Translations under genes and position numbers: made by a program
Source: Ligustrum vulgare
Taxonomy: Eukaryota > Streptophyta > Magnoliopsida > Lamiales > Oleaceae
Direction of reading: 5' to 3'
Length of the DNA: 64,000 bases
NCBI GenBank assembly: GCA_963555705.1
Contig: CAUVWQ010000018.1
Location: forward strand, 62,001-126,000
Shown here: positions 21,526 through 54,901 of the stretch, one piece after another
Numbering within the stretch: position 1 is the stretch's first letter
How the letters are laid out: every line of letters begins with the position of its first letter
Notes under the pieces: model-generated
What the model was told of the DNA's origin: nothing
Seen by the model: only the letters and a program-made list of their open reading frames with translations
Database searches by the model: none

Positions 21526-22053
21526 TATAGCGACCCAGAATTTTTACGCAATTTTATAATTATTTTAATATTTAGAAAATTGTGTCGCTACTATTTCACC
21601 TATTATTTTGAAGTTAACGCCGCGACGGATTCATCTAGCCAAGTCAAGAAATATCGAATTTGTTCGATTTTAAATTAAAATCCGAATTTCTAAAATTATG
21701 TTATTTTAATTATTTATTCAAAGTATTATTTTCAAAATCATTTTAAATTCCAAATTTATTAAAAATATCTCAATTTTCCTTATTCAAATTATTTCAAGTC
21801 CAAATACGTAATTCAATTTTTATCTCAATCATTACACCATTTTCTCTTCACTTTCCACTATCTTTATTATGTTTTTCCAACTTATACCATTTTCTTTATT
21901 CCTCTTTCCACCTCATTGCACTATCAACAAACACTATCATTATCATCACCAATTCCACCTAACACAAAACTTTCATCACCTACGCCACTCCCTCCCTCAT
22001 CATATTTTCTTTCCATTTCCCACAATAATCTAATCAATCATCCTATCTTTACA

Positions 22054-22058
22054 CTAAG
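22054..22058. repeat. Target site duplication, left (CTAAG), nested element
   Basis: CTAAG before the 5' LTR equals CTAAG at 32331-32335 after the 3' LTR. Confidence 0.92.
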
Positions 22059-22689
22059 TATAGCGACCCAGAATTTTTATGCAATAAATAATTATTTTAA
22101 TATTTAGAAAATTGTGTCACTACTATTTCATTTATTATTTTGAAGTTAACGCCGCGACGGATTCGTCTAGCCAAGTCAAGAAATATCGAATTTGTTCGAT
22201 TTTAAATTAAAATCCGAATTTCTAAAATTATATTATTTTAATTATTTATTTAAAGTATTATTTTCAAAATCATTTTTCAGTCCAAAATATATCAGTTTTA
22301 AATACTTTTCTTGATCGAAGTTAGTCCAATATTTATCAAAAATTGTATCATGAACCCACATATTTTTCTTCCTTCTTTATTTCTCTTTCCACCTCAATAT
22401 ACCATAATCAAAGCATCTTCATCATATCATTACACCTAACAAAGAACACCACTACCAATTAATCAAAGCTATCACAATTCAATCCTACCCCATGTGTATA
22501 CTAAACATAATGATGAATTACCCATATTCCACCCTTTTCATACCTAACTATTCATCATTTTTCCTAAATTTATACGTTCTCCATCTCCTCACAATACACA
22601 CAACAAACTACCAAACCACTGCAAAAGTCATCACACCCTAACCGTCCCTGCTTAACCAACACTGCCCTTCACTACACCATCTGTTCATG

Positions 22690-22975
22690 TGAAAGAGGGA
22701 AAGCACTTGCAGCATCCTATGCAATTCGAATTTTTAACAGCTAATGACCTGGTTCGGCAAGCTAATCCAAAAAAAAAAAAAAGACAGCATAAGAGCCTCC
22801 CCTGAGCAGACCCTACAACCAAATGAAGAAACCTTCCCAAGTATTTGAAAAGTAGCAGAACTGGTCGAATATTGCACAGGCCGGGAAGCACAACAGAGGC
22901 CGCACATGAGGAAAGTTTCGGCATTGATTCCAACATGAGCCTCCCTCACGCAGTTAACCTCACATAACCATCTCA
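22690..22975. other. Gene-like, GC-richer insert within the element 1 LTR (unidentified)
   Basis: This stretch lacks the CACC/CATCA composition of its surroundings, contains a run of 13 A, and is not evident in the solo LTR or in element 2. On the minus strand it reads in two overlapping open frames of about 80 residues that I do not recognise. It may be a captured host transcript fragment. The same segment is in the 3' LTR at 29570-29855. Confidence 0.3.
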
Positions 22976-23386
22976 ACATCACACAATTCTCAATTCCATC
23001 AAGTTTTCAGAAATCATTCTCATTATCAATAACCTCACCACTGCAAATCACCATTTATCATCATCACCAAATTGGCAAGCCATAACCAAGATCCACAGCC
23101 TGCATATACAATAACCAAATACAACCAATGCCACCTTCAACACCATTTCAGTATTATCTCCACCACCGGTAGCATCACCAGCCCTTTCACTGTCACCACC
23201 CCTGCCAGGTTGAACTCCAAACCAACCAGCACCACCACCACCAATCAATCAAGAACCGCCACTGCTTGAAACTCTGTTTTCCACAAACTAAATTCACAAC
23301 GTTCAGTTGAACCCAATTTCTCAACCTCTCCAAATCACCATCGATCAGATCAAAAAACTCAATGATAAATAAACCCAGTTACCTAC

Positions 23387-23650
23387 CTCAACTGTGGAAC
23401 CACTTCGCCGGAGCTATCACCGGAAATCGCAACCTTCGACCTAGGTTACACTTCGATTTCGCATCTAACCTCGCACCTGAAACCAAATCAGAACTCCCAC
23501 TCTTTTTGCCGTCGCTCGCCACACCTTACGCCTACGGTTCGCCGGCGTTCCACCGGCTGTAGCCCGGACTTCACCCTCCGTCGCCAGCTTCATCTCCCCT
23601 CTCGCCTGTCTCTCTCTGATCGAAATTGAAAATAGAGAGAGAGTAAAGTT
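23387..23650 (-). promoter_or_regulatory. Antisense leader-like exon with splice donor, element 1 5' LTR
   Basis: On the minus strand a GA/CT dinucleotide-rich stretch (around 23600-23645) is followed by a GC-richer exon-like segment and the donor GAG|GTAGGT, whose exon ends at 23387. This resembles a plant 5' leader plus first exon. From this LTR a transcript would run out of the element to the left. See the equivalent in the 3' LTR. Confidence 0.35.
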
Positions 23651-23669
23651 TTATTTAATATATTTGATT

Positions 23670-23965
23670 TTCGGAAATTTGCACTTTGGTCCCTGAAGTT
23701 TCAAAGGTTTTCAAATCAGTCCCCAAGTTTTAAAAAGGTTTTATTTCAGTCCTTTCAGCTTTTAAACTTATCATTTCAGTCCTTGCTGATTTACTTTATT
23801 TGATTTTAAGCCCAAGTTTCAAAGTATTCATTTTTAGTCCCTTAACTATCAAAAGTATTCATTTTAATCTCTCAACTTTCAAAATATCTATTTTAGTCCC
23901 TGAACTTTCAAAAGTATTCATTTTAGTCCCTCAACTTTCAAAACATCAATTTTAGTCCTCAAATT
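23670..23965 (+). repeat. LTR tandem repeats of TAGTCCCT-type units
   Basis: About ten degenerate units built on TTCATTTTAGTCCCTCAAC with TTTCAAAAG linkers. Copies lie at about 30550-30845, 33605-33955, 46380-46635 and 53170-53425. It explains the lack of any gene here. Confidence 0.75.
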
Positions 23966-23983
23966 ATAATTTATCATTTTGAA

Positions 23984-23992
23984 CTATATATT
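23984..23992 (+). promoter_or_regulatory. Probable LTR sense-strand TATA box, element 1 5' LTR
   Basis: CTATATATT lies in the block GAACTATATATTCGATA, which is kept in all five LTR copies (also 30864, 33977, 46650, 53439) although the sequence upstream diverges. It is placed about two thirds into the LTR, as expected for a U3/R boundary. The start site itself cannot be seen. Confidence 0.5.
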
Positions 23993-24394
23993 CGATATAC
24001 TAAAGTGACTTATTGGCTAAGACGAAGCGTACGGAGAATTTAAAGAAATTGAAGTCATTCCCGCTCAACTTTGCACTCGTCGGATTTGAGGTAGACTCGC
24101 ACTTATTAATTGATTTAAATTATGATTTCATATAAATGTCATGTGACTTGTGAAAGTCAATTTTTAAGAAAAACAAGTATGTTTTTATGAAAGGTAAATA
24201 TACCTTATGTTGTTATGAAAAGTAAGTATGTTTTTATGAAAAGAAAATATACTTTATGTTTTTACGAAAAGTAAGTATACCCTATGCTTCACGAAAATGT
24301 TTTTTTGGATCATTGCTATGAAATCAATCTACCAAGATTGTTTTGGGTCCCATATGATAAGTTATGATATGTTAAGGGGACCGGAGTTTTAGTA

Positions 24395-24790
24395 GCGCTA
24401 CACATAAGAATTCTTGCCACCTAAGTTCGGTAACATTCTTGTGTCTCCTATGTTTATGAGGATTTGCCACGAAGTTCGGTAAAATTCCTATCTTTCCATA
24501 TGTTTATGAGGATTTACCACCTAAGTTCGGTAAAATTCCTGTCGCATATGTTTATGAGGATTTCGATCCTATCTTATGTTATGATGCAATTGATCCCTAT
24601 GAATTTCAGAAAATTATGCTTGGTATACTTACTACATAAGAATTTTTACCACTTAAGTTCGGTAAAATTCTTATGTTTATGAGGATTTCGATTTTATCCT
24701 ATGTTATGATGAAAACTTACTGTTATTATGATTTTACTACATAAGAATTCTTACCACCTAAGTTCGGTAAAATTCTTATGTTTATGAGGA
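24395..24790 (+). repeat. Array of imperfect hairpins around TAAGTTCGGTAA, element 1 5' LTR
   Basis: Five units carry CATAAGAATT...ACC, then a loop with AAGTTC, then GGTAAAATTCTTATG, followed by TTTATGAGGATT. The clearest stems are 24635-24650 with 24661-24675, and 24739-24754 with 24766-24780, each nearly perfect over 15 bp. The palindrome GTAGCGCTAC at 24392-24401 precedes the array. All LTR copies have it (31275-31670, 34500-34945, 47060-47470, 53850-54255). If the TATA at 23984 is right, the array is in the transcribed leader. Confidence 0.75.
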
Positions 24791-25453
24791 TTTCAATCCT
24801 ATCTTATGTTATGCTTTCAAAAGAAATTATGCTTGGCATAATTAAAATGTTTTATAAGTATATGGTTTTCAAAGAACTGTTTTCAAAGAGATGTTTTCAA
24901 AGAGCATATGATTTGCAAAATATGTCCCGTGCTGTAATGCACAATATGAGTTTTATCAAGAACAGTTTTATAAAGAAGCTCTATCAATGCCCGTTTTATA
25001 AAGAGCCGGGATTTATGTGTTTAATCATCTTATAAATTAAATTAATTTGCGATGAGTCTACTGAGTATTTCCCCCATGAAATACTCACCCTACTTTTAAC
25101 AGTTTTGCAGATTTCGGAGACGGTGGCGAGCGATGAATGATGGTGGCAATAATCGTTGAACGGTTGAAAGTTTGACGTTAATGATTTCCGTATTTTCCAA
25201 ACAATCGAATATTTTAGAGAAGTTCATTTATTTGAGAAATTATGATATTGGCAATTTCTTTACAATATTAATGGTTCGATTTACTATTTCAAATGGTTTC
25301 ATAAATGTTTTCAATTTTAGCGGCCATTACAGTTTATTTAATGTTGCCAAAAAATGAATTTCAATTATTTCTTCCGCAAAAATATTATTCGAAAAAATTT
25401 AGACAGAAAATGACGTAGTGAATCGGGTATACGGAACTCGGGGCGCTACAAGT

Positions 25454-25465
25454 TGGTATCAGAGC
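25454..25465 (+). other. Primer binding site for tRNA-iMet, element 1
   Basis: TGGTATCAGAGC starts 3 bp after the 5' LTR and is complementary to the 3' end of plant initiator tRNA-Met. It primes minus-strand DNA synthesis and fixes the element's orientation as plus. Confidence 0.95.
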
Positions 25466-26417
25466 TAGTCTGCGTTTCTGTAGACTGGAAAAATTTTCAA
25501 AAAGAATTTTAAGAAATATTTTCCATTATAAGATTTTTATTGATGAAGATTGCCACTGCCATCATTCGTTCCACCAACTCCGAGGTAAAGAAGTTTATGA
25601 TGTTTAAAGTTATTTCAGTATTTCGAAAACTCATTTTATTGATTTATGAGAAAGAATGAAGAGTATTTCGGATACTTATGATTTATGAGAAATAAGAATG
25701 TATTTCTTCGAAAATAATGATGTTGTTATGCTTTGTCATAACTTATATGCTTTAATGTATGATTATGAGAAATTTTTTTTAAAGAAAACGAGTGTTGAGC
25801 ATAATGGGAATAATATGATTTTATTGAGAATTAAGTAATGGATATTATGTTGAGTTAATTTATTATGCCTCTATGTTGAAGAGAAATTTATTATGAAGTT
25901 TGGCTTTGTGAATAAATTTTGGGAATATGATTTATGGCATATATTTATAAGTATGAGTAACTTTTGAGCCAATTAAGGTATGGAAGGAAGTAATATTGTG
26001 ATATTGAAAAATATGATTTGAAATTTCTATGTTGAGGAATTATGAATTGAATTATGGGATATTTTGATGATATTGAAGTGTTGGAATCGTTTTCAATATT
26101 TTTAGATCGTTGTGATCAAATGTGGAGTTATTTATTATTGTGAGTTATGAAGTATGCTTTTGGTTTGGATAAGTCCAAATTACAAGGGAGACTCTATCCA
26201 GAATTTTATCATTTGGAATTAAGAGCATAAAATGATAAGCATCTACTAAAGGAATTAAGTTTAGACATGCAAGTTCATTTACATCAAACGAGATTTAGTA
26301 GATGATAACAGAGATTTTATTATTTTCTCATAAGGAGAACACACAAGAGTCACACTGGAAAGGAAATACATGAAACACATGAAAGCATAAGAGAAAAACA
26401 TGGAAAGATCCTCAGAA
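25466..26417. other. Element 1 interior, 5' part without a gene
   Basis: AT-rich sequence with many TTATGA and GAGAA words, no long ORF on either strand and no recognisable gag or pol remnant. The only structure noted is the perfect 10-bp inverted repeat ATCTACTAAA (26241-26250) / TTTAGTAGAT (26294-26303), also present in element 2 (48904-48913 / 48959-48968). It lies downstream of LOG on the minus strand. Confidence 0.7.
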
Positions 26418-26642
26418 TGAGAGATGTGTTTCCGGAGTAGCCGTATCCTACCACCTCTGATCTTTTGAGGAAATAGAGAAAACCTTCAAAGAGGTGTGTT
26501 TCGAGAGTAAGAATACTCCGTAATCTACCACCTGGAATCTTTGAAGTACACACAAGATTTAAACATTAAGGAAATCCTAGTAAATGGAGGGGTGTCTCGA
26601 GAGTGAGAATACTCCGTACTCTACCCCCACCTATTCTAAGAT
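26418..26642 (-). repeat. Three imperfect repeats downstream of LOG, element 1
   Basis: Three degenerate copies of a unit of about 45 bp (GTGTTTCGAGAGTAAGAATA, then CTCCGTAATCTACCACCT) at about 26420-26457, 26493-26535 and 26590-26632. Each has inverted halves such as AGAGT...ACTCT. They lie just after the LOG stop on the minus strand, so they would fall in a LOG 3' untranslated region. Confidence 0.6.
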
Positions 26643-27296
26643 TCAAAGAGTTAAATTTACATTAACCGGACTCCATTTTCGCTTGATTCCCCTTCCTTGC
26701 GACCAATCTATCTTAACCCCTGCTGGATCTTGTATTGAGATATATGACTGCAGCTTATCCAGTAGTTCATCAATAGTAGGAGCAGAAATAAGAAGCCTTC
26801 TGGAAAATGGAGAGATGAATCCCTGTTCCACAGCATAATCAAGAAAGGTTAACAAACCATCAAAGAAATTGTTAACATTCAGAAGCCCAATAGGCTTAGT
26901 ATGGAGATCTAGTTGAGCCCACGAGGTAATGTTAAAAATTTCTTCTAAGGTACCAAAACCTCCGGGCAGGGCTATAAAGGCATCAGAACCATATAGCATA
27001 CAAGTTATGCGTTCATGGATGGATAAGGTTTGAACTTCATGCCCTCGTGTTTTGCCTGCAACATCTACCAAAGGGACAGGTATGACACCGATTACTTTTG
27101 ATTTCTCTGCAAGAGCAGATTGGGAAACACAACCCATTAGACCACTGCTACCACCCCCATATACAAGAGTGATACCTTTTTCCCCCAGTTTCTTTCCAAG
27201 ATCTACAGCCGCTTCTAGATAACCGAAGCCTTTCCCTACTTTTGATCCACAAAATACACAAATAGTTTTGATCTGTCGAAGTTTTGGTGCTTCCAT
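26643..27296 (-). CDS. LOG: Cytokinin riboside 5'-monophosphate phosphoribohydrolase, LONELY GUY type (element 1)
   Basis: 217 residues, the usual length for plant LOG, complete from an ATG in good context (AAAGATGG) to TGA. Enzymes of this family release free cytokinin base from the nucleotide in one step and act in cytosol and nucleus. Visible: N-terminal CVFCGS (13-18), LVYGGGSSGLMG (44-55), the conserved Arg in IHER (93-96), the family signature PGGFGTLEE (111-119), and TKPIGLLNV (133-141). The Lys that normally follows the Arg in plant LOGs is Ile97, and the signature Tyr is Phe114, so activity is likely but not certain. Host LOG genes are split by several introns; this copy has none, which suggests capture through RNA. 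It is antisense to the retroelement, 329 bp downstream of the viral-like gene. The protein is identical to that in element 2. Confidence 0.96.
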   Translation of the reverse strand: MEAPKLRQIKTICVFCGSKVGKGFGYLEAAVDLGKKLGEKGITLVYGGGSSGLMGCVSQSALAEKSKVIGVIPVPLVDVAGKTRGHEVQTLSIHERITCMLYGSDAFIALPGGFGTLEEIFNITSWAQLDLHTKPIGLLNVNNFFDGLLTFLDYAVEQGFISPFSRRLLISAPTIDELLDKLQSYISIQDPAGVKIDWSQGRGIKRKWSPVNVNLTL

Positions 27297-27370
27297 CTTT
27301 GATATTAAAGAAGGGAAAACTTACGAAGAAGATGTGATTTTGGGATGCCTGAACTATGAAATATGTTTGG

Positions 27371-27380
27371 CTATTTAAAG
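27371..27380 (-). promoter_or_regulatory. Possible TATA box of LOG, element 1
   Basis: Minus-strand CTTTAAATAG about 75 nt upstream of the LOG ATG. The same TTTAAATAG core occurs upstream of the viral-like gene and is kept in element 2. Position fits a short-leader promoter, but nothing else supports it. Confidence 0.35.
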
Positions 27381-27484
27381 CCGGAAAAATTTACTGTTTT
27401 TGATTGATTCTGAAAAAGTAAAGATTCACTTTTTGACAAAATCGACCAACTTTTGACTATTTTATCAAAGATATCACCTTTCGG

Positions 27485-27583
27485 TGATTTATTTCCAGCT
27501 TTATCAAACTTCGAGAAAAGAAAAATATATTTATTTCCAGCTTTATCAAACCTCGAGAAAGGAAAATATATTTTATTTCCAAA
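27485..27583. repeat. Two-copy repeat between the two cargo genes, element 1
   Basis: TTTATTTCCAGCTTTATCAA with an adjoining CTCGAGAAA-type segment and ATATA occurs twice, about 48 bp apart. Element 2 has a single copy near 50160-50205, part of why the gap between the genes differs (329 against 300 bp). Confidence 0.7.
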
Positions 27584-27625
27584 ACGCGTGAAAGAAAGCA
27601 GCAAAATATTTTAAAAAGATTTACC

Positions 27626-28177
27626 TCATATCATTGATGAACTGCCAAAAGCCTCATTTTGTAAAACAGACTGGCAAACAGGATCTTTCGATATTATATT
27701 TTGGAGACTATAACGATCTTTGTCCTCGTTAAACTGAGCGTATAAGGAGAGAAGTTCACGTTGTACATAACCACTTGGGTGCGTCTCAAGAGTCAGTCGA
27801 ATATCATCCAAAGACTCCTTACTCAGTCCACCCTTTATGAATTCGATTTTATCATCCCGATTAGTAGAAGAATATCCTACTGATTTGCAAAGAGTATTAC
27901 AGTTCCAACGAGCACATTTGTAGCAACCACCCAGTCTTTTTGCTCTTCGTTTCTTTGCAAACGTGCTTTTGCCTAAACCAGGCATATGTTTTGGAAATGT
28001 TGATGGTAATTCACCAGATAGTCGAACCTTTGCTTCTATCAACCAGCGAACATCTTCTGGAATATCATGAGCCATTAGCAACCTCAATCTTTCGAGCCTT
28101 ATTTTATAGATCTTTCTCAGATCATTCATAGGAAGACTGGAATAATACTTGCGAATGTTAGAAAGGATGATATCCAT
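27626..28177 (-). CDS. Viral-like cysteine-rich nucleic-acid-binding protein (element 1)
   Basis: 183 residues from an ATG in ideal plant context (ACAATGG); a longer frame would need a TTG start and is not used. Visible: a charged N-terminal half with Arg/Leu-rich helix, the basic patch KKRRAKR (75-81), then cysteines at 85, 88, 93 and 97 (spacing 2, 4, 3), a GYSS segment and FIKGG, then about 60 residues of tail. Basic patch, cysteine cluster and following Gly-x-Ser...Ile-x-x-Gly resemble the 3'-proximal cysteine-rich proteins of carlaviruses and relatives (Betaflexiviridae), which bind nucleic acid and act in silencing suppression or as nuclear regulators. The cysteine spacing is tighter than in the viruses and the tail is extra, so this is a proposed relationship. 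It is intact, antisense to the retroelement and upstream of LOG. Confidence 0.6.
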   Translation of the reverse strand: MDIILSNIRKYYSSLPMNDLRKIYKIRLERLRLLMAHDIPEDVRWLIEAKVRLSGELPSTFPKHMPGLGKSTFAKKRRAKRLGGCYKCARWNCNTLCKSVGYSSTNRDDKIEFIKGGLSKESLDDIRLTLETHPSGYVQRELLSLYAQFNEDKDRYSLQNIISKDPVCQSVLQNEAFGSSSMI

Positions 28178-28902
28178 TGTTTGATGATTCAACCTCTTCC
28201 CAGCATGAACTATTTAAAAGCGCAAGGATATGAATGAATCCGCGTGATGTTGTGACCAGCAAGAAAGCGCAGGATTATTTTAATGAAAAGAGGAGACAAG
28301 AAGTAATGCGCTGTTAAATTTTATCGATAAAGGAGATTTGATTGGAGATTTGGAATATTTTCTTGGATTATGGGTACTGATATTTTGTTTTAATAATGAT
28401 AATCTTGGTATAGTGTGATGATACGTGGAAAGAGTACCGTATTGAATCAGAATTTATACGTATATACAAGTGAAAGAAATACTTTGCAGGAAATGTGGTG
28501 ACATTTAAATATAGAATCTTAGTTGGGAGATATTTGTTTACTGAATTTTGGGTTACAAATATTGGAAAGATAAGTTGATGATATTATGTTGATATGTTTG
28601 GGTATATTACGTAGAGAAAATATTCAGGTAATTCTTTGATTATTTTGGGAATTTTCGATGATAAGAAAGGAAAAATTATTATGATACGATATGTCAGTAA
28701 AGATTTGTTGAAATTTTAGAGATATATACGAATATTTGAGGTCACATGATACGATGATAAGTGACAAGTTACATGAATACTACAAGATATGATGAAATTT
28801 TTACATACGATTGGAAATTGTTTTGATTATTTTGAGAATATTCGATGATAAGAAGAAGAGATTCTGATTAAGTATTCAGAAATTATAAGATTAAGTAAGT
28901 TT
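28178..28902. other. Element 1 interior, 3' part without a gene
   Basis: AT-rich, no ORF of note. On the minus strand it would be the leader of the viral-like gene. It holds TTTAAATAG (28210-28218, only about 33 nt before the ATG) and possible splice acceptors such as TTTAACAG near 28310-28320, which could join to the antisense donor in the 3' LTR. These are inferences. Confidence 0.5.
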
Positions 28903-28938
28903 AATTTCGAGGACGAAATTATTTTAAGGAGGTAAGAT
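28903..28938 (+). other. Polypurine tract and Ty3/gypsy-like 3' signature, element 1
   Basis: AATTTCGAGGACGAAATT (28903-28920), itself an inverted repeat, is followed by the polypurine tract AAGGAGGTAAGAT (28926-28938) touching the 3' LTR. The tract primes plus-strand DNA synthesis. The signature is familiar from plant Ty3/gypsy elements. Confidence 0.85.
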
Positions 28939-31900
28939 TATAGCGACCCAGAATTTTTATGCAATAAATAATTATTTTAATATTTAGAAAATTGTGTCAC
29001 TACTATTTCATTTATTATTTTGAAGTTAACGCCGCGACGGATTCGTCTAGCCAAGTCAAGAAATATCGAATTTGTTCGATTTTAAATTAAAATCCGAATT
29101 TCTAAAATTATATTATTTTAATTATTTATTTAAAGTATTATTTTCAAAATCATTTTTCAGTCCAAAATATATCAGTTTTAAATACTTTTCTTGATCGAAG
29201 TTAGTCCAATATTTATCAAAAATTGTATCATGAACCCACATATTTTTCTTCCTTCTTTATTTCTCTTTCCACCTCAATATACCATAATCAAAGCATCTTC
29301 ATCATATCATTACACCTAACAAAGAACACCACTACCAATTAATCAAAGCTATCACAATTCAATCCTACCCCATGTGTATACTAAACATAATGATGAATTA
29401 CCCATATTCCACCCTTTTCATACCTAACTATTCATCATTTTTCCTAAATTTATACGTTCTCCATCTCCTCACAATACACACAACAAACTACCAAACCACT
29501 GCAAAAGTCATCACACCCTAACCGTCCCTGCTTAACCAACACTGCCCTTCACTACACCATCTGTTCATGTGAAAGAGGGAAAGCACTTGCAGCATCCTAT
29601 GCAATTCGAATTTTTAACAGCTAATGACCTGGTTCGGCAAGCTAATCCAAAAAAAAAAAAAAGACAGCATAAGAGCCTCCCCTGAGCAGACCCTACAACC
29701 AAATGAAGAAACCTTCCCAAGTATTTGAAAAGTAGCAGAACTGGTCGAATATTGCACAGGCCGGGAAGCACAACAGAGGCCGCACATGAGGAAAGTTTCG
29801 GCATTGATTCCAACATGAGCCTCCCTCACGCAGTTAACCTCACATAACCATCTCAACATCACACAATTCTCAATTCCATCAAGTTTTCAGAAATCATTCT
29901 CATTATCAATAACCTCACCACTGCAAATCACCATTTATCATCATCACCAAATTGGCAAGCCATAACCAAGATCCACAGCCTGCATATACAATAACCAAAT
30001 ACAACCAATGCCACCTTCAACACCATTTCAGTATTATCTCCACCACCGGTAGCATCACCAGCCCTTTCACTGTCACCACCCCTGCCAGGTTGAACTCCAA
30101 ACCAACCAGCACCACCACCACCAATCAATCAAGAACCGCCACTGCTTGAAACTCTGTTTTCCACAAACTAAATTCACAACGTTCAGTTGAACCCAATTTC
30201 TCAACCTCTCCAAATCACCATCGATCAGATCAAAAAACTCAATGATAAATAAACCCAGTTACCTACCTCAACTGTGGAACCACTTCGCCGGAGCTATCAC
30301 CGGAAATCGCAACCTTCGACCTAGGTTACACTTCGATTTCGCATCTAACCTCGCACCTGAAACCAAATCAGAACTCCCACTCTTTTTGCCGTCGCTCGCC
30401 ACACCTTACGCCTACGGTTCGCCGGCGTTCCACCGGCTGTAGCCCGGACTTCACCCTCCGTCGCCAGCTTCATCTCCCCTCTCGCCTGTCTCTCTCTGAT
30501 CGAAATTGAAAATAGAGAGAGAGTAAAGTTTTATTTAATATATTTGATTTTCGGAAATTTGCACTTTGGTCCCTGAAGTTTCAAAGGTTTTCAAATCAGT
30601 CCCCAAGTTTTAAAAAGGTTTTATTTCAGTCCTTTCAGCTTTTAAACTTATCATTTCAGTCCTTGCTGATTTACTTTATTTGATTTTAAGCCCAAGTTTC
30701 AAAGTATTCATTTTTAGTCCCTTAACTATCAAAAGTATTCATTTTAATCTCTCAACTTTCAAAATATCTATTTTAGTCCCTGAACTTTCAAAAGTATTCA
30801 TTTTAGTCCCTCAACTTTCAAAACATCAATTTTAGTCCTCAAATTATAATTTATCATTTTGAACTATATATTCGATATACTAAAGTGACTTATTGGCTAA
30901 GACGAAGCGTACGGAGAATTTAAAGAAATTGAAGTCATTCCCGCTCAACTTTGCACTCGTCGGATTTGAGGTAGACTCGCACTTATTAATTGATTTAAAT
31001 TATGATTTCATATAAATGTCATGTGACTTGTGAAAGTCAATTTTTAAGAAAAACAAGTATGTTTTTATGAAAGGTAAATATACCTTATGTTGTTATGAAA
31101 AGTAAGTATGTTTTTATGAAAAGAAAATATACTTTATGTTTTTACGAAAAGTAAGTATACCCTATGCTTCACGAAAATGTTTTTTTGGATCATTGCTATG
31201 AAATCAATCTACCAAGATTGTTTTGGGTCCCATATGATAAGTTATGATATGTTAAGGGGACCGGAGTTTTAGTAGCGCTACACATAAGAATTCTTGCCAC
31301 CTAAGTTCGGTAACATTCTTGTGTCTCCTATGTTTATGAGGATTTGCCACGAAGTTCGGTAAAATTCCTATCTTTCCATATGTTTATGAGGATTTACCAC
31401 CTAAGTTCGGTAAAATTCCTGTCGCATATGTTTATGAGGATTTCGATCCTATCTTATGTTATGATGCAATTGATCCCTATGAATTTCAGAAAATTATGCT
31501 TGGTATACTTACTACATAAGAATTTTTACCACTTAAGTTCGGTAAAATTCTTATGTTTATGAGGATTTCGATTTTATCCTATGTTATGATGAAAACTTAC
31601 TGTTATTATGATTTTACTACATAAGAATTCTTACCACCTAAGTTCGGTAAAATTCTTATGTTTATGAGGATTTCAATCCTATCTTATGTTATGCTTTCAA
31701 AAGAAATTATGCTTGGCATAATTAAAATGTTTTATAAGTATATGGTTTTCAAAGAACTGTTTTCAAAGAGATGTTTTCAAAGAGCATATGATTTGCAAAA
31801 TATGTCCCGTGCTGTAATGCACAATATGAGTTTTATCAAGAACAGTTTTATAAAGAAGCTCTATCAATGCCCGTTTTATAAAGAGCCGGGATTTATGTGT

Positions 31901-32330
31901 TTAATCATCTTATAAATTAAATTAATTTGCGATGAGTCTACTGAGTATTTCCCCCATGAAATACTCACCCTACTTTTAACAGTTTTGCAGATTTCGGAGA
32001 CGGTGGCGAGCGATGAATGATGGTGGCAATAATCGTTGAACGGTTGAAAGTTTGACGTTAATGATTTCCGTATTTTCCAAACAATCGAATATTTTAGAGA
32101 AGTTCATTTATTTGAGAAATTATGATATTGGCAATTTCTTTACAATATTAATGGTTCGATTTACTATTTCAAATGGTTTCATAAATGTTTTCAATTTTAG
32201 CGGCCATTACAGTTTATTTAATGTTGCCAAAAAATGAATTTCAATTATTTCTTCCGCAAAAATATTATTCGAAAAAATTTAGACAGAAAATGACGTAGTG
32301 AATCGGGTATACGGAACTCGGGGCGCTACA
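28939..32330 (+). repeat. 3' LTR of element 1 (3392 bp)
   Basis: Same length as the 5' LTR and no difference noticed at an offset of 6880 bp. Contains the same TATA-like box (30864-30872), hairpin array (31275-31670), gene-like insert and C-rich zone. Confidence 0.95.
30267..30530 (-). promoter_or_regulatory. Antisense leader-like exon with splice donor, element 1 3' LTR
   Basis: Copy of the segment at 23387-23650. From here an antisense transcript would pass through the rest of the LTR into the interior and read the viral-like gene and then LOG in sense. Donor GAG|GTAGGT with the exon ending at 30267. Confidence 0.4.
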
Positions 32331-32335
32331 CTAAG
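32331..32335. repeat. Target site duplication, right (CTAAG), nested element
   Basis: Matches 22054-22058; the solo LTR sequence resumes after it. Confidence 0.92.
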
Positions 32336-35300: not shown

Positions 35301-35605
35301 TGGCAATAATCGTTAAACGGGTGAAAGTTTGACGTTAATGATTTCCGTATTTTTCCAAACAATCGAATAATTTAGAGAAGTTCATTTATTTGAGAAATTA
35401 TGACATTGTCAATTTCTTTACAAAATTAATGGTTCGATTTACTATTTCAAATGGTTTCATAAATGTTTCAATTTTATCGGCCATTACAGTTTATTTAATG
35501 TTGCCAAAAATGAATTTCAATTATTTCTTCCGCAAAAATATTATTCGAAAAATTTAGACAGAAAATGACGTAGTGAATCGGGTATACGGAACTCGGGGCG
35601 CTACA
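32336..35605 (+). repeat. Right part of the solo LTR
   Basis: Continues the LTR interrupted at 22058. It has the C-rich low-complexity zone (to about 33400), an antisense leader-like exon (33418-33580), the TAGTCCCT repeats, the TATA-like box (33977-33985), a 117-bp direct duplication beginning GTAGACTCGCACTT at 34084 and 34201, the hairpin array (34500-34945) and the terminal GGGGCGCTACA. The duplication is absent from the other LTRs. Confidence 0.9.
33418..33580 (-). promoter_or_regulatory. Antisense leader-like exon with splice donor, solo LTR
   Basis: Minus strand: GA-rich leader (around 33510-33565), an exon-like stretch with CCGGCAG, then the donor CAG|GTAAGG with the exon ending at 33418. 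The sequence has diverged from the other LTRs but the order of parts is the same. Confidence 0.35.
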
Positions 35606-41200: not shown

Positions 41201-41448
41201 TTGCACGACAAGAGTGGTAAATTACTTTCGGTATTTTTATATTTATTCCCTTCATAATTGTAACTAGCACACGTGCGGTGTACGTGAATATGTCTATGAT
41301 TTTTAAAAAACATTTAAATAAAAAACATTATTGAATTGAAAACCTTGAGAAACACAAAAAATACTCAAAATATGAAATCCAACCCGAACCCAAAACTAAG
41401 AAAATTAGGAAATCCTGATTCGTATAGGATTTTTTTTATTTTTCTTTT
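38277..41448. repeat. Higher-order dimer, 1586 bp, two copies
   Basis: Units near 38277 and 39070 recur near 39863 and 40656 with private variants such as GAGTTCGGTCC, AAGTCTTGGT and TCTTTCCGC in the same order. Confidence 0.8.
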
Positions 41449-44400: not shown

Positions 44401-44630
44401 AAATCACTTTCTGTATTTTTATATTTATTCCCTTCATAATTGTAACTAGCACACGTGCGATGTACGTGAGTATGTCTATGATTTTTAAAAAACATTTAAA
44501 TAAAAAACATTATTGAATTGAAAACCTTGAGAACACAAAAACTACTCAAAATACGAAATCCAACCCGAGACCAAAACTAAGAATTAGGAAATCCGGATCC
44601 GTATAGGATTATTATTTTTTTTTATTTTTC
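41449..44630. repeat. Higher-order dimer, 1591 bp, two copies
   Basis: Units near 41449 and 42247 recur near 43040 and 43838. Shared variants include TTATAGTGATGAGC, TTAATTCATAAG and GGTGCATATGGGAGG. Confidence 0.75.
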
Positions 44631-44785
44631 TTTTTTGAATTTTTTTTCTCTTCACAGTCGCAAGTCTACTCAAGTGCTACATACAATGGTCTTCAAAACA
44701 CCACTGGAAGATGTATGGAAGCTAAATTTCGCTGCTTGTGCCCCTAATGTGGTAACGCTTGGGGAGCAGGATACGTCCTTCGTGA

Positions 44786-44790
44786 CCATC
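44786..44790. repeat. Target site duplication, left (CCATC), element 2
   Basis: CCATC matches 54902-54906; uninterrupted monomers read GTGACCATCATGGCC. Confidence 0.93.
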
Positions 44791-47700
44791 TATAGCGACC
44801 CAGAATTTTTATGCAATAAATAATTATTTTAATATTTAGAAAAATTGTGTCGCTACTATTTCATTTATTATTTTGAAATTAATGCCGCGACGGATTCGTC
44901 TAGCCAAGTCAAAAAAAAAAATATCGAATTTGCTCGATTTTAAATTAAATTTCCGAATTTCTAAAATTATATTACTTTAATTATTTATTCAAAGTATTAT
45001 TTTCAAAATCATTTTTCAGTCCAAAATATATCTGCTTTAAATACATTTTTAAATCGAAGTTAGTCAAATTTTAATTAATTATCTTAAATTAAACATTAGC
45101 CTAATTATCCTATAGCCGAAAGCATATTCCCTTAATCATGTTTCCTTTCTTTCTCTTTTTCTTTAAAACATCATCATTATCATCACTAATTTTCCATCAT
45201 CAGATTCCACTTAGCACATGGACCACAAACCTATCATCATCACCAGGCCACCTTCTTCTCCTTCATCTTCTTATTCATCACCAACAATCAACATACGAGG
45301 TAATGCTTCAATCTCTTGAACCATCATCTTCAAGGAACCAAGCCTCTAACTTCCATAGAAGAACCCCTGCCTCGGTTGAACTCCTCAAAACAGTCATCAC
45401 CTCCAAGATTGAAACCAGTCCACTGCCCCAATACCATCTTCTAGTGCCCAGATTCAACTCCAAACCAGTTTATGAATCATCACCTCCATCAATCACTGTA
45501 AAACATGCCAACAACCTACACATTAGCTCGGCTCAGAATCACCAGCTCAATTTCTCTGCAACACTCAGACCAAACGCCAATTGAATCATGAACCCACAGC
45601 CATCATCTCCATCTTAGCAACTACTGCACAAACCATTTACACTACAATCAGTATTATCACTGCCAAGTTACCACCTCCAACTCAACATTGTCCTTCCACC
45701 ACCAGCAACCAATCGACATTATCAAACCTAGTCCCAAAGCAATCATCCTCAGCACTGCTCCATCACACAACAAACTGGACAATTCACCACCACCGAATCA
45801 AACAGCAACCATCATCCACCAACGCTGCTATTGTCAATACCAATCCGCCCCTTTCACCATCAGAATCACCACCAATTCAGAAATCAAACCCAATTACTGC
45901 AACAGTTCAATACCTTCACCGAATTAAACACCATCACCGCCTCTACAAACATCACCACCATTTCAAATCATCATCCCTAAACCGTCACTGATTTCCATCA
46001 CTTCACCAAACGACCCAACAACTGCCCCTCACAAATCAAAACCCAAAACAAGAAATAAGTAAACTCAGTTACTTACCTCACCTCAGACCACCTATTCGCC
46101 GGAAGATCGCGATCTAAACCACGACCTTGAAGCCTCGGTTTCGCACATCAAAACACTCAAAACACCACAGAGACTCAATCCTAAACCCAAGTACTTACCT
46201 TAGCTGCAGATCGTTGTTCCGCCGGAATTATCACCGGATGTCGCAGCTAAGATCGATTTTCAAAATCTCGATTCAACCCTAATTTTCGTCTGAGCCTTCT
46301 GAGACAGTGAACGAATGAGAGAGAGAGAACGTTGAGAGATCTGATTAGGATATTTGATTTTAATATTTAAACTTTCAGAAATTTCACTTTAGTCCCTAGC
46401 CTAATTATGTTTTAAAGATTCAGTCCCTAAGTTTACAAAATGTTTTATGTCGGTCCTTTCAGCTTTAAATCTTTTTAATTCAGTCCCTTAAGTTTTAAAT
46501 GAGTTTTAATCAGCCCTTTCATTTTCAAAATCTATTATTTCAGTCACTGTTAATTTACTTTTAAGCCCAAGTTTCAAAAGTATTCATTTTAGTCCCTCAA
46601 CTTTCAAAACATCAATTTTAGTCCTCAAATTATAATTTATCATTTTGAACTATATATTCGATAGACTAAAGTGACTTATTGGCTAAGACGAAGCGTACGG
46701 AGAATTCAAAGAAATTGAAGTCATTCCCGCTCAACTTTGCACTCGTCGGATTTGAGGTAGACTCGCACTTATTAATTGATTTAAATTATGATTTCATATG
46801 AATGTCATGTGACTTGTGAAAGTCAATTTTTAAGAAAAGCAAGTATGTTGTTATGAAAGGTAAATATACCTTATGTTGTTATGAAAAGTAAGTATGTTTT
46901 TATGAAAAGAAAATATACTTTATGTTTTTAAGAAAAGTAAGTATACCCTATGCTTCACGAAAATGTTTTTTTGGATCATTGCTATGAAATCAATCTACCA
47001 AGATTGTTTTGGGTCCCATATGATAAGTTATGATATGTTAAGGGGACCGGAGTTTTAGTAGCGCTACACATAAGAATTCTTGCCACCTAAGTTCGGTAAC
47101 ATTCTTGTGTCTCCTATGTTTATGAGGATTTGCCACGAAGTTCGGTAAAATTCCTATCTTTCCATATGTTTATGAGGATTTACCACCTAAGTTCGGTAAA
47201 ATTCCTGTCGCATATGTTTATGAGGATTTCGATCCTATCTTATGTTATGATGCAATTGATCCCTATGAATTTCAGAAAATTATGCTTGGTATACTTACTA
47301 CATAAGAATTCTTACCACCTAAGTTCGGTAAAATTCTTATGTTTATGAGGATTTCGATTTTATCCTATGTTATGATGAAAACTTATTGTTATTATGATTT
47401 TACTGCATAAGAATTCTTGCCACCTAAGTTCGGTAAAGTTCTTGTGTCTCCCTATGTTTATGAGGATTTCAATCATATCTTATGTTATGCTTTCAAAAGA
47501 AATTATGCTTGGCATAATTAAAATGTTTTTATAAGTATATGGTTTTCAAAGAGCTATTTTCAAAGAGCCTATGATTTGCAAAATATGTCCCGTGCTGTAA
47601 TGCAAAATATGAGTTTTATCAAGAGCCGTTTTATAAAGAAGCTCTATCAATGCCCGTTTTATAAAGAGCCGGGATTTATGTGTTTAATCATCTTATAAAT

Positions 47701-48112
47701 TAAATTAATTTGCGATGAGTCTACTGAGTATTTCCCCCATGAAATACTCACCCTACTTTTTAACAGTTTTGCAGATTTCGGAGACGGTGGCGAGCGATGA
47801 ATGATGGTGGCAATAATCGTTGAACGGTTGAAAGTTTGACGTTAATGATTTCCGTATTTTCCAAACAATCGAATAATTTAGAGAAGTTCATTTATTTGAG
47901 AAATTATGATATTGGCAATTTCTTTACAATATTAATGGTTCGATTTACTATTTCAAATGGTTTCATAAATGTTTTCAAATTTAGCGGCCATTACAGTTTA
48001 TTTAATGTTGCCAAAAATGAATTTCAATTATTTCTTCCGCAAAAATATTATTCGAAAAATTTAGACAGAAAATGACGTAGTGAATCGGGTATACGGAACT
48101 CGGGGCGCTACA
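44791..48112 (+). repeat. 5' LTR of element 2 (3322 bp)
   Basis: Order of parts as in element 1: AT-rich start, C-rich low-complexity zone (about 45130-46070), leader-like zone, TAGTCCCT repeats, TATA-like box (46650-46658), hairpin array (47060-47470). Open frames of up to 148 residues in the C-rich zone are Ser/His/Pro/Thr-rich translations of CATCA/CACC sequence. Confidence 0.95.
46199..46350 (-). promoter_or_regulatory. Antisense leader-like exon with splice donor, element 2 5' LTR
   Basis: Minus strand: CT-repeat leader (around 46315-46335), a TTAGGGTT telobox (46275-46282), an exon-like segment, then the consensus donor AAG|GTAAGTA with the exon ending at 46199. A second donor-like GAG|GTAAGTA lies further on, near 46070-46080. 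Confidence 0.4.
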
Positions 48113-48115
48113 AGT

Positions 48116-48127
48116 TGGTATCAGAGC
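48116..48127 (+). other. Primer binding site for tRNA-iMet, element 2
   Basis: TGGTATCAGAGC three bases after the 5' LTR, as in element 1. Confidence 0.95.
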
Positions 48128-49075: not shown

Positions 49076-49300
49076 GAGATGTGTTTCCGGAGTAGCCGTA
49101 TCCTACCACCTCTGATCTTTTGAGGATATAAATAAAGAAACCTTCAAAGAGGTGTGTTTCGAGAGTAAGAATACTCCGTAATCTACCACCTGGAACCTTT
49201 GAGGTACACACAAGATTTAAACATTAAGGAAATCCTAGTAAATGGAGGGGTGTCTCGAGAGTGAGAATACTCCGTACTCTACCCCCACCTATTCTAAGAT
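49076..49300 (-). repeat. Three imperfect repeats downstream of LOG, element 2
   Basis: Counterpart of 26418-26642, with the same three units and a few base changes. Confidence 0.6.
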
Positions 49301-49954
49301 TCACAGAGTTAAATTTACATTAACCGGACTCCATTTTCGCTTGATTCCCCTTCCTTGCGACCAATCTATCTTAACTCCTGCTGGATCTTGTATTGAGATA
49401 TATGACTGCAGCTTATCCAGTAGTTCATCAATAGTAGGAGCGGAAATAAGAAGCCTTCTGGAAAATGGAGAGATGAATCCCTGTTCCACAGCATAATCAA
49501 GAAAGGTTAACAAACCATCAAAGAAATTGTTAACATTCAGAAGCCCAATAGGCTTAGTATGGAGATCTAGTTGAGCCCATGAGGTAATGTTAAAGATTTC
49601 TTCTAAGGTACCAAAACCTCCGGGCAGGGCTATAAAGGCATCAGAACCATATAGCATACAAGTTATGCGTTCATGGATGGATAAGGTTTGAACTTCATGC
49701 CCTCGTGTTTTGCCTGCAACATCTACCAAAGGGACAGGTATGACACCGATTACTTTTGATTTCTCTGCAAGAGCAGATTGGGAAACACAACCCATTAGAC
49801 CACTGCTACCACCCCCATATACAAGAGTGATACCTTTTTCCCCCAGTTTCTTTCCAAGATCTACAGCCGCTTCTAGATAACCGAAGCCTTTCCCTACTTT
49901 TGATCCACAAAATACACAAATAGTTTTGATCTGTCGAAGTTTTGGTGCTTCCAT
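49301..49954 (-). CDS. LOG: Cytokinin riboside 5'-monophosphate phosphoribohydrolase, LONELY GUY type (element 2)
   Basis: 217 residues, identical in protein to the copy in element 1, with the same CVFCGS, IHER and PGGFGTLEE motifs and the same Ile97 in place of the usual Lys. Comparing the two genes base by base I find five differences, all third-position or otherwise silent; both end in TGA. Flanking non-coding DNA of the two elements differs by many substitutions and indels. That pattern suggests selection on the protein since the two lineages split. Intronless, antisense to the element, 300 bp downstream of the viral-like gene. Confidence 0.96.
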   Translation of the reverse strand: MEAPKLRQIKTICVFCGSKVGKGFGYLEAAVDLGKKLGEKGITLVYGGGSSGLMGCVSQSALAEKSKVIGVIPVPLVDVAGKTRGHEVQTLSIHERITCMLYGSDAFIALPGGFGTLEEIFNITSWAQLDLHTKPIGLLNVNNFFDGLLTFLDYAVEQGFISPFSRRLLISAPTIDELLDKLQSYISIQDPAGVKIDWSQGRGIKRKWSPVNVNLTL

Positions 49955-50028
49955 CTTTGATAGTAAAGAAGGGAAAACTTACGAAGAAGATGTGATTTTG
50001 GGATGCCTGAACTATGAAATATGTTTGG

Positions 50029-50254: not shown

Positions 50255-50806
50255 TTATAACATTGCTGAACTGCCAGAAGCCTCATTTTGTAAAACAGAC
50301 TGGCAAACAGGATCTTTTGCTATTATATTTTGGAGACTATAACGATTTTTGTCCTCGTTAAATTGAGCGTATAAGGAGAGAAGTTCACGTTGCACATAAC
50401 CACTTGGGTGCGTCTCAAGAGTCAGTCGAATATCATCCAAAGACTCCTTACTCAGTCCACCCTTTATGAATTCGATTTTATCATCCCGATTAGTAGAAGA
50501 ATATCCTACTGATTTGCAACGTGTATTACAGTTCCAACGAGCACATTTGTAGCAACCACCCAGTCTTTTTGCTCTTCGTTTCTTTGCAAACGTGCTTTTG
50601 CCTAAACCAGGCATGTGCTTTGGAAATGTTGATGGTAATTCACCAGATAGTCGAACCTTTGCTTCTATCAACCAGCGAACATCTTCTGGAATATCATGAG
50701 CCATTAGCAACCTCAATCTTTCGAGCCTTATTCTATAGATCTTTCTCAGATCATTCATAGGAAGACTGGAATAATACTTGCGAATGTTAGAAAGGATGAT
50801 ATCCAT
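50255..50806 (-). CDS. Viral-like cysteine-rich nucleic-acid-binding protein (element 2)
   Basis: 183 residues from the same ACAATGG start as in element 1, ending in TAA rather than TGA. Seven residues differ: 25 (Lys/Arg), 96 (Leu/Arg), 154 (Asp/Asn), 163 (Ser/Ala), 177 (Phe/Ser), 181 (Ser/Ala) and 183 (Ile/Leu). The basic patch and all four cysteines are unchanged, and four of the changes lie in the last 30 residues. I count about six silent changes besides the stop codon, which suggests mild constraint. Relationship to carlavirus-type proteins is proposed from the motif order, as for the other copy. Confidence 0.6.
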   Translation of the reverse strand: MDIILSNIRKYYSSLPMNDLRKIYRIRLERLRLLMAHDIPEDVRWLIEAKVRLSGELPSTFPKHMPGLGKSTFAKKRRAKRLGGCYKCARWNCNTRCKSVGYSSTNRDDKIEFIKGGLSKESLDDIRLTLETHPSGYVQRELLSLYAQFNEDKNRYSLQNIIAKDPVCQSVLQNEASGSSAML

Positions 50807-51578: not shown

Positions 51579-54500
51579 TATAGCGACCCAGAATTTTTAT
51601 GCAATAAATAATTATTTTAATATTTAGAAAAATTGTGTCGCTACTATTTCATTTATTATTTTGAAATTAATGCCGCGACGGATTCGTCTAGCCAAGTCAA
51701 AAAAAAAAAATATCGAATTTGTTCGATTTTAAATTAAATTTCCGAATTTCTAAAATTATATTACTTTAATTATTTATTCAAAGTATTATTTTCAAAATCA
51801 TTTTTCAGTCCAAAATATATCTGTTTTAAATACATTTTTAAATCGAAGTTAGTCAAATTTTAATTAATTATCTTAAATTAAACATTAGCCTAATTATCCT
51901 ATAGCCGAAAGCATATTCCCTTAATCATGTTTCCTTTCTTTCTCTTTTTCTTTAAAACATCATCATTATCATCACTAATTTTCCATCATCAGATTCCACT
52001 TAGCACATGGACCACAAACCTATCATCATCACCAGGCCACCTTCTTCTCCTTCATCTTCTTATTCATCACCAACAATCAACATACGAGGTAATGCTTCAA
52101 TCTCTTGAACCATCATCTTCAAGGAACCAAGCCTCTAACTTCCATAGCAGAACCCCTGCCTCGGTTGAACTCCTCAAAACAGTCATCACCTCCAAGATTG
52201 AAACCAGTCCACTGCCCCAATACCATCTTCTAGTGCCCAGATTCAACTCCAAACCAGTTTATGAATCATCACCTCCATCAATCACTGTAAAACATGCCAA
52301 CAACCTACACATTAGCTCGGCTCAGAATCACCAGCTCAATTTCTCTGCAACACTCAGACCAAACGCCAATTGAATCATGAACCCACAGCCATCATCTCCA
52401 TCTTAGCAACTACTGCACAAACCATTTACACTACAATCAGTATTATCACTGCCAAGTTACCACCTCCAACTCAACATTGTCCTTCCACCACCAGCAACCA
52501 ATCGACATTATCAAACCTAGTCCCAAAGCAATCATCCTCAGCACTGCTCCATCACACAACAAACTGGACAATTCACCACCACCGAATCAAACAGCAACCA
52601 TCATCCACCAACGCTGCTATTGTCAATACCAATCCGCCCCTTTCACCATCAGAATCACCACCAATTCAGAAATCAAACCCAATTACTGCAACAGTTCAAT
52701 ACCTTCACCGAATTAAACACCATCACCGCCTCTACAAACATCACCACCATTTCAAATCATCATCCCTAAACCGTCACTGATTTCCATCACTTCACCAAAC
52801 GACCCAACAACTGCCCCTCACAAATCAAAACCCAAAACAAGAAATAAGTAAACTCAGTTACTTACCTCACCTCAGACCACCTATTCGCCGGAAGATCGCG
52901 ATCTAAACCGCGACCTTGAAGCCTCGGTTTCGCACATCAAAACACTCAAAACACCACAGAGACTCAATCCTAAACCCAAGTACTTACCTTAGCTGCAGAT
53001 CGTTGTTCCGCCGGAATTATCACCGGATGTCGCAGCTAAGATCGATTTTCAAAATCTCGATTCAACCCTAATTTTCGTCTGAGCCTTCTGAGACAGTGAA
53101 CGAATGAGAGAGAGAGAACGTTGAGAGATCTGATTAGGATATTTGATTTTAATATTTAAACTTTCAGAAATTTCACTTTAGTCCCTAGCCTAATTATGTT
53201 TTAAAGATTCAGTCCCTAAGTTTACAAAATGTTTTATGTCGGTCCTTTCAGCTTTAAATCTTTTTAATTCAGTCCCTTAAGTTTTAAATGAGTTTTAATC
53301 AGCCCTTTCATTTTCAAAATCTATTATTTCAGTCACTGTTAATTTACTTTTAAGCCCAAGTTTCAAAAGTATTCATTTTAGTCCCTCAACTTTCAAAACA
53401 TCAATTTTAGTCCTCAAATTATAATTTATCATTTTGAACTATATATTCGATAGACTAAAGTGACTTATTGGCTAAGACGAAGCGTACGGAGAATTCAAAG
53501 AAATTGAAGTCATTCCCGCTCAACTTTGCACTCGTCGGATTTGAGGTAGACTCGCACTTATTAATTGATTTAAATTATGATTTCATATGAATGTCATGTG
53601 ACTTGTGAAAGTCAATTTTTAAGAAAAGCAAGTATGTTGTTATGAAAGGTAAATATACCTTATGTTGTTATGAAAAGTAAGTATGTTTTTATGAAAAGAA
53701 AATATACTTTATGTTTTTAAGAAAAGTAAGTATACCCTATGCTTCACGAAAATGTTTTTTTGGATCATTGCTATGAAATCAATCTACCAAGATTGTTTTG
53801 GGTCCCATATGATAAGTTATGATATGTTAAGGGGACCGGAGTTTTAGTAGCGCTACACATAAGAATTCTTGCCACCTAAGTTCGGTAACATTCTTGTGTC
53901 TCCTATGTTTATGAGGATTTGCCACGAAGTTCGGTAAAATTCCTATCTTTCCATATGTTTATGAGGATTTACCACCTAAGTTCGGTAAAATTCCTGTCGC
54001 ATATGTTTATGAGGATTTCGATCCTATCTTATGTTATGATGCAATTGATCCCTATGAATTTCAGAAAATTATGCTTGGTATACTTACTACATAAGAATTC
54101 TTACCACCTAAGTTCGGTAAAATTCTTATGTTTATGAGGATTTCGATTTTATCCTATGTTATGATGAAAACTTATTGTTATTATGATTTTACTGCATAAG
54201 AATTCTTGCCACCTAAGTTCGGTAAAGTTCTTGTGTCTCCCTATGTTTATGAGGATTTCAATCATATCTTATGTTATGCTTTCAAAAGAAATTATGCTTG
54301 GCATAATTAAAATGTTTTTATAAGTATATGGTTTTCAAAGAGCTATTTTCAAAGAGCCTATGATTTGCAAAATATGTCCCGTGCTGTAATGCAAAATATG
54401 AGTTTTATCAAGAGTCGTTTTATAAAGAAGCTCTATCAATGCCCGTTTTATAAAGAGCCGGGATTTATGTGTTTAATCATCTTATAAATTAAATTAATTT

Positions 54501-54901
54501 GCGATGAGTCTACTGAGTATTTCCCCCATGAAATACTCACCCTACTTTTTAACAGTTTTGCAGATTTCGGAGACGGTGGCGAGCGATGAATGATGGTGGC
54601 AATAATCGTTGAACGGTTGAAAGTTTGACGTTAATGATTTCCGTATTTTCCAAACAATCGAATAATTTAGAGAAGTTCATTTATTTGAGAAATTATGATA
54701 TTGGCAATTTCTTTACAATATTAATGGTTCGATTTACTATTTCAAATGGTTTCATAAATGTTTTCAAATTTAGCGGCCATTACAGTTTATTTAATGTTGC
54801 CAAAAATGAATTTCAATTATTTCTTCCGCAAAAATATTATTCGAAAAATTTAGACAGAAAATGACGTAGTGAATCGGGTATACGGAACTCGGGGCGCTAC
54901 A
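51579..54901 (+). repeat. 3' LTR of element 2 (3323 bp)
   Basis: Matches the 5' LTR at an offset of 6788-6789 bp with five substitutions and one extra A in the A run near 51698-51710. TATA-like box at 53439-53447, hairpin array about 53850-54255. Confidence 0.95.
52988..53139 (-). promoter_or_regulatory. Antisense leader-like exon with splice donor, element 2 3' LTR
   Basis: Copy of 46199-46350, including the telobox (53064-53071) and the donor AAG|GTAAGTA (exon end 52988). This one points into the element, towards the viral-like gene and LOG, so it is the best candidate for driving the cargo. Confidence 0.45.

Follow-up and report, generated by a model that had tools for sequence, protein, structure and literature searches.

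An antisense gene pair of LOG and carlavirus-type relatives in a non-autonomous LTR retrotransposon family of Ligustrum vulgare

Why would a retrotransposon without gag or pol keep two intact genes on its opposite strand? The question is raised by a 64,000-nucleotide stretch of the Ligustrum vulgare genome (contig CAUVWQ010000018.1, positions 62,001 to 126,000 of the forward strand; below, the window, in whose numbering all coordinates are given). The window holds two long terminal repeat (LTR) retrotransposons with the same pair of antisense open reading frames (ORFs), one encoding a relative of the cytokinin-activating enzyme LOG and the other a nucleic-acid-binding protein (NABP) of carlavirus type. 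Our preferred answer, held tentatively and with somewhat less than even confidence, is that this is a non-autonomous family with a self-contained antisense two-gene module, which may serve nuclear counter-silencing or transcription control. Published papers are cited by accession.

Two complete elements with the same antisense genes

An earlier note on this DNA had described two independent, structurally complete LTR elements carrying the same two intact antisense ORFs and no gag or pol. Comparison of LTRs, target duplications, primer-binding sites, purine tracts and reading frames bears this out. Element 1 occupies 22059-32330 and element 2 occupies 44791-54901. The 5' LTR of element 1 (22059..25450, plus strand, 3392 bp, TATAGCG...CGCTACA) is 100% identical over 3392 bp to its 3' LTR (28939..32330, plus strand), and the span between them, 25451-28938, is the internal region. 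The primer-binding site TGGTATCAGAGC adjoins the 5' LTR (25454..25465, plus strand), the polypurine tract AAGGAGG precedes the 3' LTR (28926..28932, plus strand), and the 5-bp target duplication CTAAG was read on both sides (22054..22058 and 32331..32335, plus strand). Element 2 has LTRs of 99.82% identity (44791..48112 and 51579..54901, plus strand), its own 5-bp duplication, CCATC, the same primer site and a purine tract. We take the primer site to be of the initiator-Met type. By the style of its primer site and purine tract the element may belong to the chromovirus (Tekay/Del) lineage; it has no pol itself.

No gag- or pol-sized frame was found in element 1, where the longest stop-to-stop frame other than those of LOG and NABP measures 114 amino acids. 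Among ATG-started ORFs of at least 150 amino acids, the window contains just the LOG and NABP of each element, four in all. With LTRs, target duplication, primer site and purine tract and without gag-pol, the elements are non-autonomous LTR retrotransposons (large retrotransposon derivatives); with conserved ORFs between the LTRs and opposite to the element strand, they are also antisense-ORF (aORF) LTR retrotransposons. No autonomous partner came to light in a gag search of the host genome, which yielded no loci from 150 scored of 27688 candidates. In a weak comparison, made by eye among the matches listed, none of 10 gag places on chromosome C1 lay within 3 kb of the family's LTR/primer junctions there.

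On the minus strand, NABP comes first and LOG second in each element, and all four ORFs are open. In element 1 the NABP ORF encodes 183 amino acids (27626..28177, minus strand) and the LOG-family ORF 217 amino acids (26643..27296, minus strand); their counterparts in element 2 lie at 50255..50806 and 49301..49954, also on the minus strand. In each of the 17 copies aligned, TATA-like sequences stand upstream of LOG (CTTTAAATAG, 27371..27380, minus strand) and of NABP (CTTTTAAATAG, 28210..28220, minus strand) as putative antisense promoters. Since copies without the ORFs break off at its two ends, the module can be delimited at about 26309..28281 (minus strand, roughly 2 kb), which takes in both ORFs and both TATA-like boxes. 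The two elements differ in LOG at 5 sites, every one at a third codon position, and the LOG proteins are identical. NABP differs at 14 sites (4, 4 and 6 by codon position) and the spacer by 5.8% (17/293).

A LOG relative with an altered pocket and its viral-type partner

The identities first assigned to the two proteins hold. LOG matched Pfam PF03641 (E 1.3e-33) and NABP matched PF05515 (2.1e-7) and PF01623 (3.5e-6), with scores over the curated cut-offs for Betaflexivirus NABP and Carla_C4 (31.6 vs 23 and 27.3 vs 20.9 bits). For LOG, 7231 relatives were found at E <=1e-3 and the best 120 examined at the catalytic and prenyl-pocket residues known from CgLOG, whose numbering we follow (PMC4979012). 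The window copy has the type Ia loop PGGxGTxxE, the catalytic Arg and the catalytic Glu, and among the 120 best relatives Arg99 is kept in 112 and Glu122 in 118. The prenyl/adenine pocket, Met96, His97, Lys100, Glu125 and Trp129, reads I, H, I, N and W in the window copy, which sets it apart from type Ia LOGs. Of the same 120, only 8 keep Lys100 and 7 keep Glu125, the other 112 and 113 having a change there, whereas both residues stand in all of the 120 canonical LOGs compared.

The carboxy terminus also sets most relatives apart. An LxLxL motif, mostly behind KKRK-like residues, falls within the last 12 residues in 92 of the 120 best relatives and in 0 of the 120 canonical proteins; this basic-LxLxL tail resembles a nuclear signal joined to a TOPLESS-binding EAR motif. 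The tail of the window protein, KRKWSPVNVNLTL, which the earlier note had passed over, did not vary among the 32 copies compared.

In a 51-row tree, the window protein and 31 relatives stood on one side of a branch with support 99/93, recovered in 100% of 200 bootstrap trees, and 16 canonical LOG1/3 and LOG8 sequences fell apart from them; the rows taken as retrotransposon-borne, except the window's, were picked by similarity rather than by a demonstrated LTR setting, and the host's own canonical LOGs were left out. Judged by these sequences, the LOG-fold clade is one that split once from canonical LOG1/3. A recent capture of a canonical LOG from this host genome was rejected as the origin, because in this tree the window protein groups with relatives from other plants and not with canonical LOG1/3 or LOG8. 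Under midpoint rooting the first branch in the clade is a Xanthoceras relative, P0212, which keeps HERK and a Glu125-type residue, has no LxLxL end and may reveal the order of the changes.

The earlier note had gone further and proposed that the cargo could favour the element: LOG would make active cytokinin and, with NABP, cause meristem cells or germ-line precursors to divide more and silencing to weaken. On this model inheritance of new copies would be favoured. The retained catalytic Arg and Glu and PGGxGTxxE loop agree with this, as do the strong constraint on LOG described below and the hyperplasia caused by p12, the NABP of chrysanthemum virus B (PMC12172455). However, Met96, Lys100 and Glu125 are changed in the window copy (His97 and Trp129 are kept), Lys100 and Glu125 in most relatives too, and a diffusible hormone would benefit all copies in common, so this alone would not favour those that keep the ORFs. 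The pocket changes make a plain supply of cytokinin less likely; since the catalytic residues are retained and the pocket differs from one LOG to another, we consider the hormone model unlikely rather than refuted.

NABP carries a basic KKRRAKR stretch and a Cx2Cx4Cx3C cluster. Across it and its aligned relatives, two Pfam families alone were matched at E <=0.01, both viral and each in 21 of 22 sequences. In the alignment Cys93 is invariant, and Cys85, Cys88, Cys97 and the basic stretch are almost so. Residue 96, beside the last Cys of the cluster, is polymorphic for Arg and Leu; 8 of 29 copies have Leu, among them element 1, and part of this set had been chosen by similarity to that element. 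The likeness to carlavirus cysteine-rich NABPs such as chrysanthemum virus B p12 (PF01623/PF05515) runs across the basic and Cys-rich core. Carlavirus NABPs are smaller and have longer Cys spacing, whereas the element's protein is DNA-borne in retrotransposons, has 183 amino acids and has short Cys spacing. No carlavirus or other NABP relative was confirmed in IMG/VR (20 stretches matched the pattern, 0 confirmed), and PDB returned two chance-level matches alone (E 0.99 and 1).

Both proteins have relatives in distant plants. At E <=1e-3, 352 relatives of NABP were found, and the best 120 listed include the named genera Orobanche, Populus, Acer and Xanthoceras. Matches listed for LOG include Diospyros, Populus, Reevesia, Diplodiscus, Xanthoceras, Primulina and Parasponia, which gives nine named eudicot genera for both proteins together among the matches listed. 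In three Orobanche gene models (P0016, P0019 and P0023) NABP and a LOG-family sequence are joined in one model, and contigs of 8723, 4511, 2128 and 1558 bp from the same source appear in both lists of relatives, which suggests linkage of the two genes there. In the NABP tree the window sequence lies near Orobanche, Xanthoceras goes with Acer, and the Populus rows fall together. This distribution of relatives fits an old, mostly vertical descent of both genes in eudicots.

Copies in the host genome and selection on their genes

We scanned the host assembly (1.385 Gb, 51 contigs) with a 28-nt pattern across LTR end and primer site, allowing up to 3 mismatches. It occurred at 2643 places; the reversed pattern, used as a control, occurred at 0. 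Fetching every fifth of 100 listed junctions gave 20 copies, not selected for their ORFs, all with exact junctions and all on C1. The module was present in 14 of the 20, although in one of these (L026) LOG residues 136-217 alone were in view. LOG was full length without a stop in 12 of the 14, and L030 had one stop. NABP, in view in 13, was open in 12, of which 3 lay only in part within the sequence fetched; in L042 it had a frameshift. Both ORFs were open in 11 of the 14, that is 11 of all 20, with the start Met and the stop codon present wherever the ends fall inside the stretch. The outcome named beforehand as speaking against the cargo, ORFs lacking or broken in most copies, is not what was found, although six copies lack both and the pair cannot be called universal in the family. 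The proposed search for further elements was productive in the host, whose copies are the ones observed inside LTRs; relatives elsewhere were not seen in such a setting.

The six copies without ORFs (L028, L032, L033, L034, L036 and L038) form a subfamily with LTR end and primer site as in module-bearing copies. An unrelated non-coding stretch of about 860 bp, 95.6-98.6% alike between copies, replaces the module. Blast alignments to element 1 break off near 858 and 2832 of the internal region, and in L032, which has a further deletion, the filler measures 365 bp.

A second set of 15 copies was drawn from the 150 best NABP matches. All 15 had the layout LTR-module-LTR, with LTR pairs of 99.4-100% identity (5 complete, 10 partial), and a matching target duplication was read in 3 of the five copies with complete LTRs, the other two being L016 and L017. 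LOG was 217 amino acids long in 19 of 19 copies (these 15, the two of the window and two short loci). The family is large, abundant and recently active. LTR positions of about 230-1580 showed little or no match to element 1 in the 15 copies, the LTR ends being well kept. In L017 the 3' LTR runs directly into another internal region, and same-strand neighbours some 6.2-7.0 kb apart recur among the C1 junctions and NABP matches listed, as in tandem arrays sharing LTRs.

To read selection we used polymorphism among 39 loci, 32 of which gave an ungapped LOG (the six copies without module and L026 were left out). Of the LOG changes common to at least two copies, 16 were silent and one was a replacement (p 1.7e-9 relative to neutrality); those in single copies were 17 silent, 14 replacement and 1 stop. 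The contrast of 16:1 with 17:15 was significant (Fisher p 0.0039), also in the junction sample alone (13 LOG copies; shared 11:0, singletons 15:13; Fisher p 0.0067). Because shared changes are so much more often silent than singletons, LOG has been under purifying selection along the transposing lines. In our reading, selection acts on those copies from which new ones arise and is afterwards relaxed but not absent. For NABP, 28 of the 39 loci could be used (left out were the six that lack the module, L026, L042 and 3 truncated at the limits of the sequence fetched), with silent to replacement changes of 11:11 when shared and 14:7 in singletons, both below neutral. Pairwise ratios of replacement to silent polymorphism (pN/pS) in 17 copies were 0.029 for LOG and 0.278 for NABP. 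Within the earlier proposal, a complete element with two open antisense ORFs under selection is supported, and LOG as a cytokinin maker is left unsupported.

These counts bear on three further explanations. The ORFs could be passive cargo, open merely through the youth of the copies, as the 99.4-100% identity of LTR pairs in the NABP-chosen copies and the six junction copies that manage without the module would allow. The shared-versus-singleton contrast in LOG lowers this reading, and relatives of both ORFs are retained in distant eudicots; we regard it as improbable. It is also very improbable that the antisense transcript matters rather than the protein, through double-stranded RNA or interference with sense RNA. 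Regulatory antisense RNA has been proposed for other plant LTR elements (PMC7264820), but LOG is constrained at the protein level, as the codon-position pattern between the window copies also indicates. Finally, a domesticated LOG-type protein serving the host and amplified by chance within the element, a notion encouraged by relatives annotated LOGL10 in Populus and Diospyros, is hardly credible given the high copy number behind LTR/primer junctions and the database clusters of tens to hundreds of related proteins, both of which fit a mobile element.

The surroundings of the two elements in the window are repetitive. Element 1 was inserted into an older solo LTR of the same family (21526-22058 and 32336-35605, with AAAAA on either flank). 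A satellite tandem array surrounds the elements (1-21525, 35611-44790 and 54907-64000), with a monomer of about 790-798 bp, a GC content of about 34% in one monomer, and 50 copies of one 300-nt stretch in the window.

Known parallels and a possible role for the module

Antisense ORFs of plant LTR elements mostly have no clear similarity to known proteins, and their function is unexplained (PMC7264820). Those of Grande (gene23), RIRE2, Retand (TRP28) and PvRetro13 are conserved, as here, and lie between pol and the 3' LTR; in Grande the ORF has its own promoter, some of the proteins are nuclear, and a regulatory role has been proposed (PMC7264820, PMC11963269). In the excerpts of these papers such elements are described with gag and pol (some Retand elements lack domains) and with ORFs mostly lacking clear relatives, whereas the privet family has no gag-pol and its ORFs have recognizable viral and LOG relatives.

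That no element with this pair had been described, as the earlier note supposed, agrees with the open-licence literature, where titles and abstract starts of the top matches held neither the pair in one element nor the tail nor the pocket change; the LOG domain alone has been reported in such elements. The LOG-domain elements of Steinbauerova et al. 2011 are reportedly two Athila-like elements. PMC9289625 cites that work for an earlier LOG/YgdH report and finds a YgdH/LOG domain in consensus sequences of Citrus and Populus LTR retrotransposons, much as here; a viral partner, a tail or an altered pocket does not figure in its accessible part. The Citrus and Populus elements may share a cassette lineage with the privet family. 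In orchids, Ty3/gypsy elements that carry an m6A demethylase (2-ODD/AlkB-type) domain likewise keep a captured enzyme, although the enzyme is another one and gag-pol is present (PMC9289625).

How might the module work? The element would presumably be moved by the proteins of some gag-pol element, and each antisense gene would be driven by its own putative TATA-like box. Both proteins would then act in the nucleus on behalf of the element and not as a plain hormone supply. NABP may bind nucleic acid and blunt silencing as a silencing suppressor; carlavirus-type proteins do act as suppressors, and chrysanthemum virus B p12 suppresses weakly and is also a transcription factor that brings about hyperplasia (PMC12172455), in line with the earlier note. 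The LOG-derived protein could be a nuclear nucleotide-binding or nucleotide-hydrolysing regulator, and, given its near constancy in the spreading lines, it probably serves the element in some way. In most lineages its tail could recruit the TOPLESS co-repressor, like some pathogen effectors. The downy mildew effector HaRxL21 binds TOPLESS through a carboxy-terminal EAR motif (PMC7446885) and, like most of the LOG relatives, carries LxLxL at the end of a putatively nuclear protein. It differs in that ours is a LOG-fold protein from a retrotransposon, for which TOPLESS binding is putative and the window motif degenerate. The net outcome would be that elements expressing the module are less silenced, or that the host response to them is altered.

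A product that helps all copies equally would not select intact ORFs copy by copy, so selection on LOG would imply either that the copy making the product is preferred to some extent or that source copies are few; the six copies without ORFs show that any such preference is not absolute.

Several observations weigh against a nuclear counter-silencing or regulatory module. Six of the 20 junction copies have spread without it, and it is therefore not required in cis for every transposition. LOG singletons, too, fall short of the neutral expectation (ratio 0.28, p 5e-4), which shows that copies do not simply decay after insertion, and selection on NABP is weaker than on LOG, being modest and showing no shared-versus-singleton contrast. 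The junction sample, with exact junctions on one chromosome, leans to young copies, and the second set, coming from the best NABP matches, is biased towards youth and intactness. As to the proteins, a nuclear location is conjectured from the presence of basic residues, the canonical control set consists of LOG1/LOG3-like proteins alone, and the Mycobacterium marinum LOG likewise differs in its prenyl pocket (PMC4979012), so pocket changes need not abolish activity. The window tail, VNVNLTL, has Val at the first Leu and is a degenerate LxLxL. Leu substitutions abolished TOPLESS binding by HaRxL21, and ten other LxLxL effectors tested did not bind TOPLESS (PMC7446885), so the motif alone is insufficient.

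A bolder version of the counter-silencing module looks rather doubtful: an ancient two-gene counter-defence module that would pair a nuclear, TOPLESS-recruiting former hormone enzyme with a silencing suppressor acquired from an RNA virus, run from its own antisense promoters and be selected even without gag-pol.

Because both proteins have recognizable relatives in a broad lineage, and because this young, abundant family lets selection be read from many copies, the role of an antisense accessory gene becomes directly testable here. Should the tail function as an EAR motif in those relatives that possess it, a transposon would be exploiting the same co-repressor pathway as pathogen effectors.

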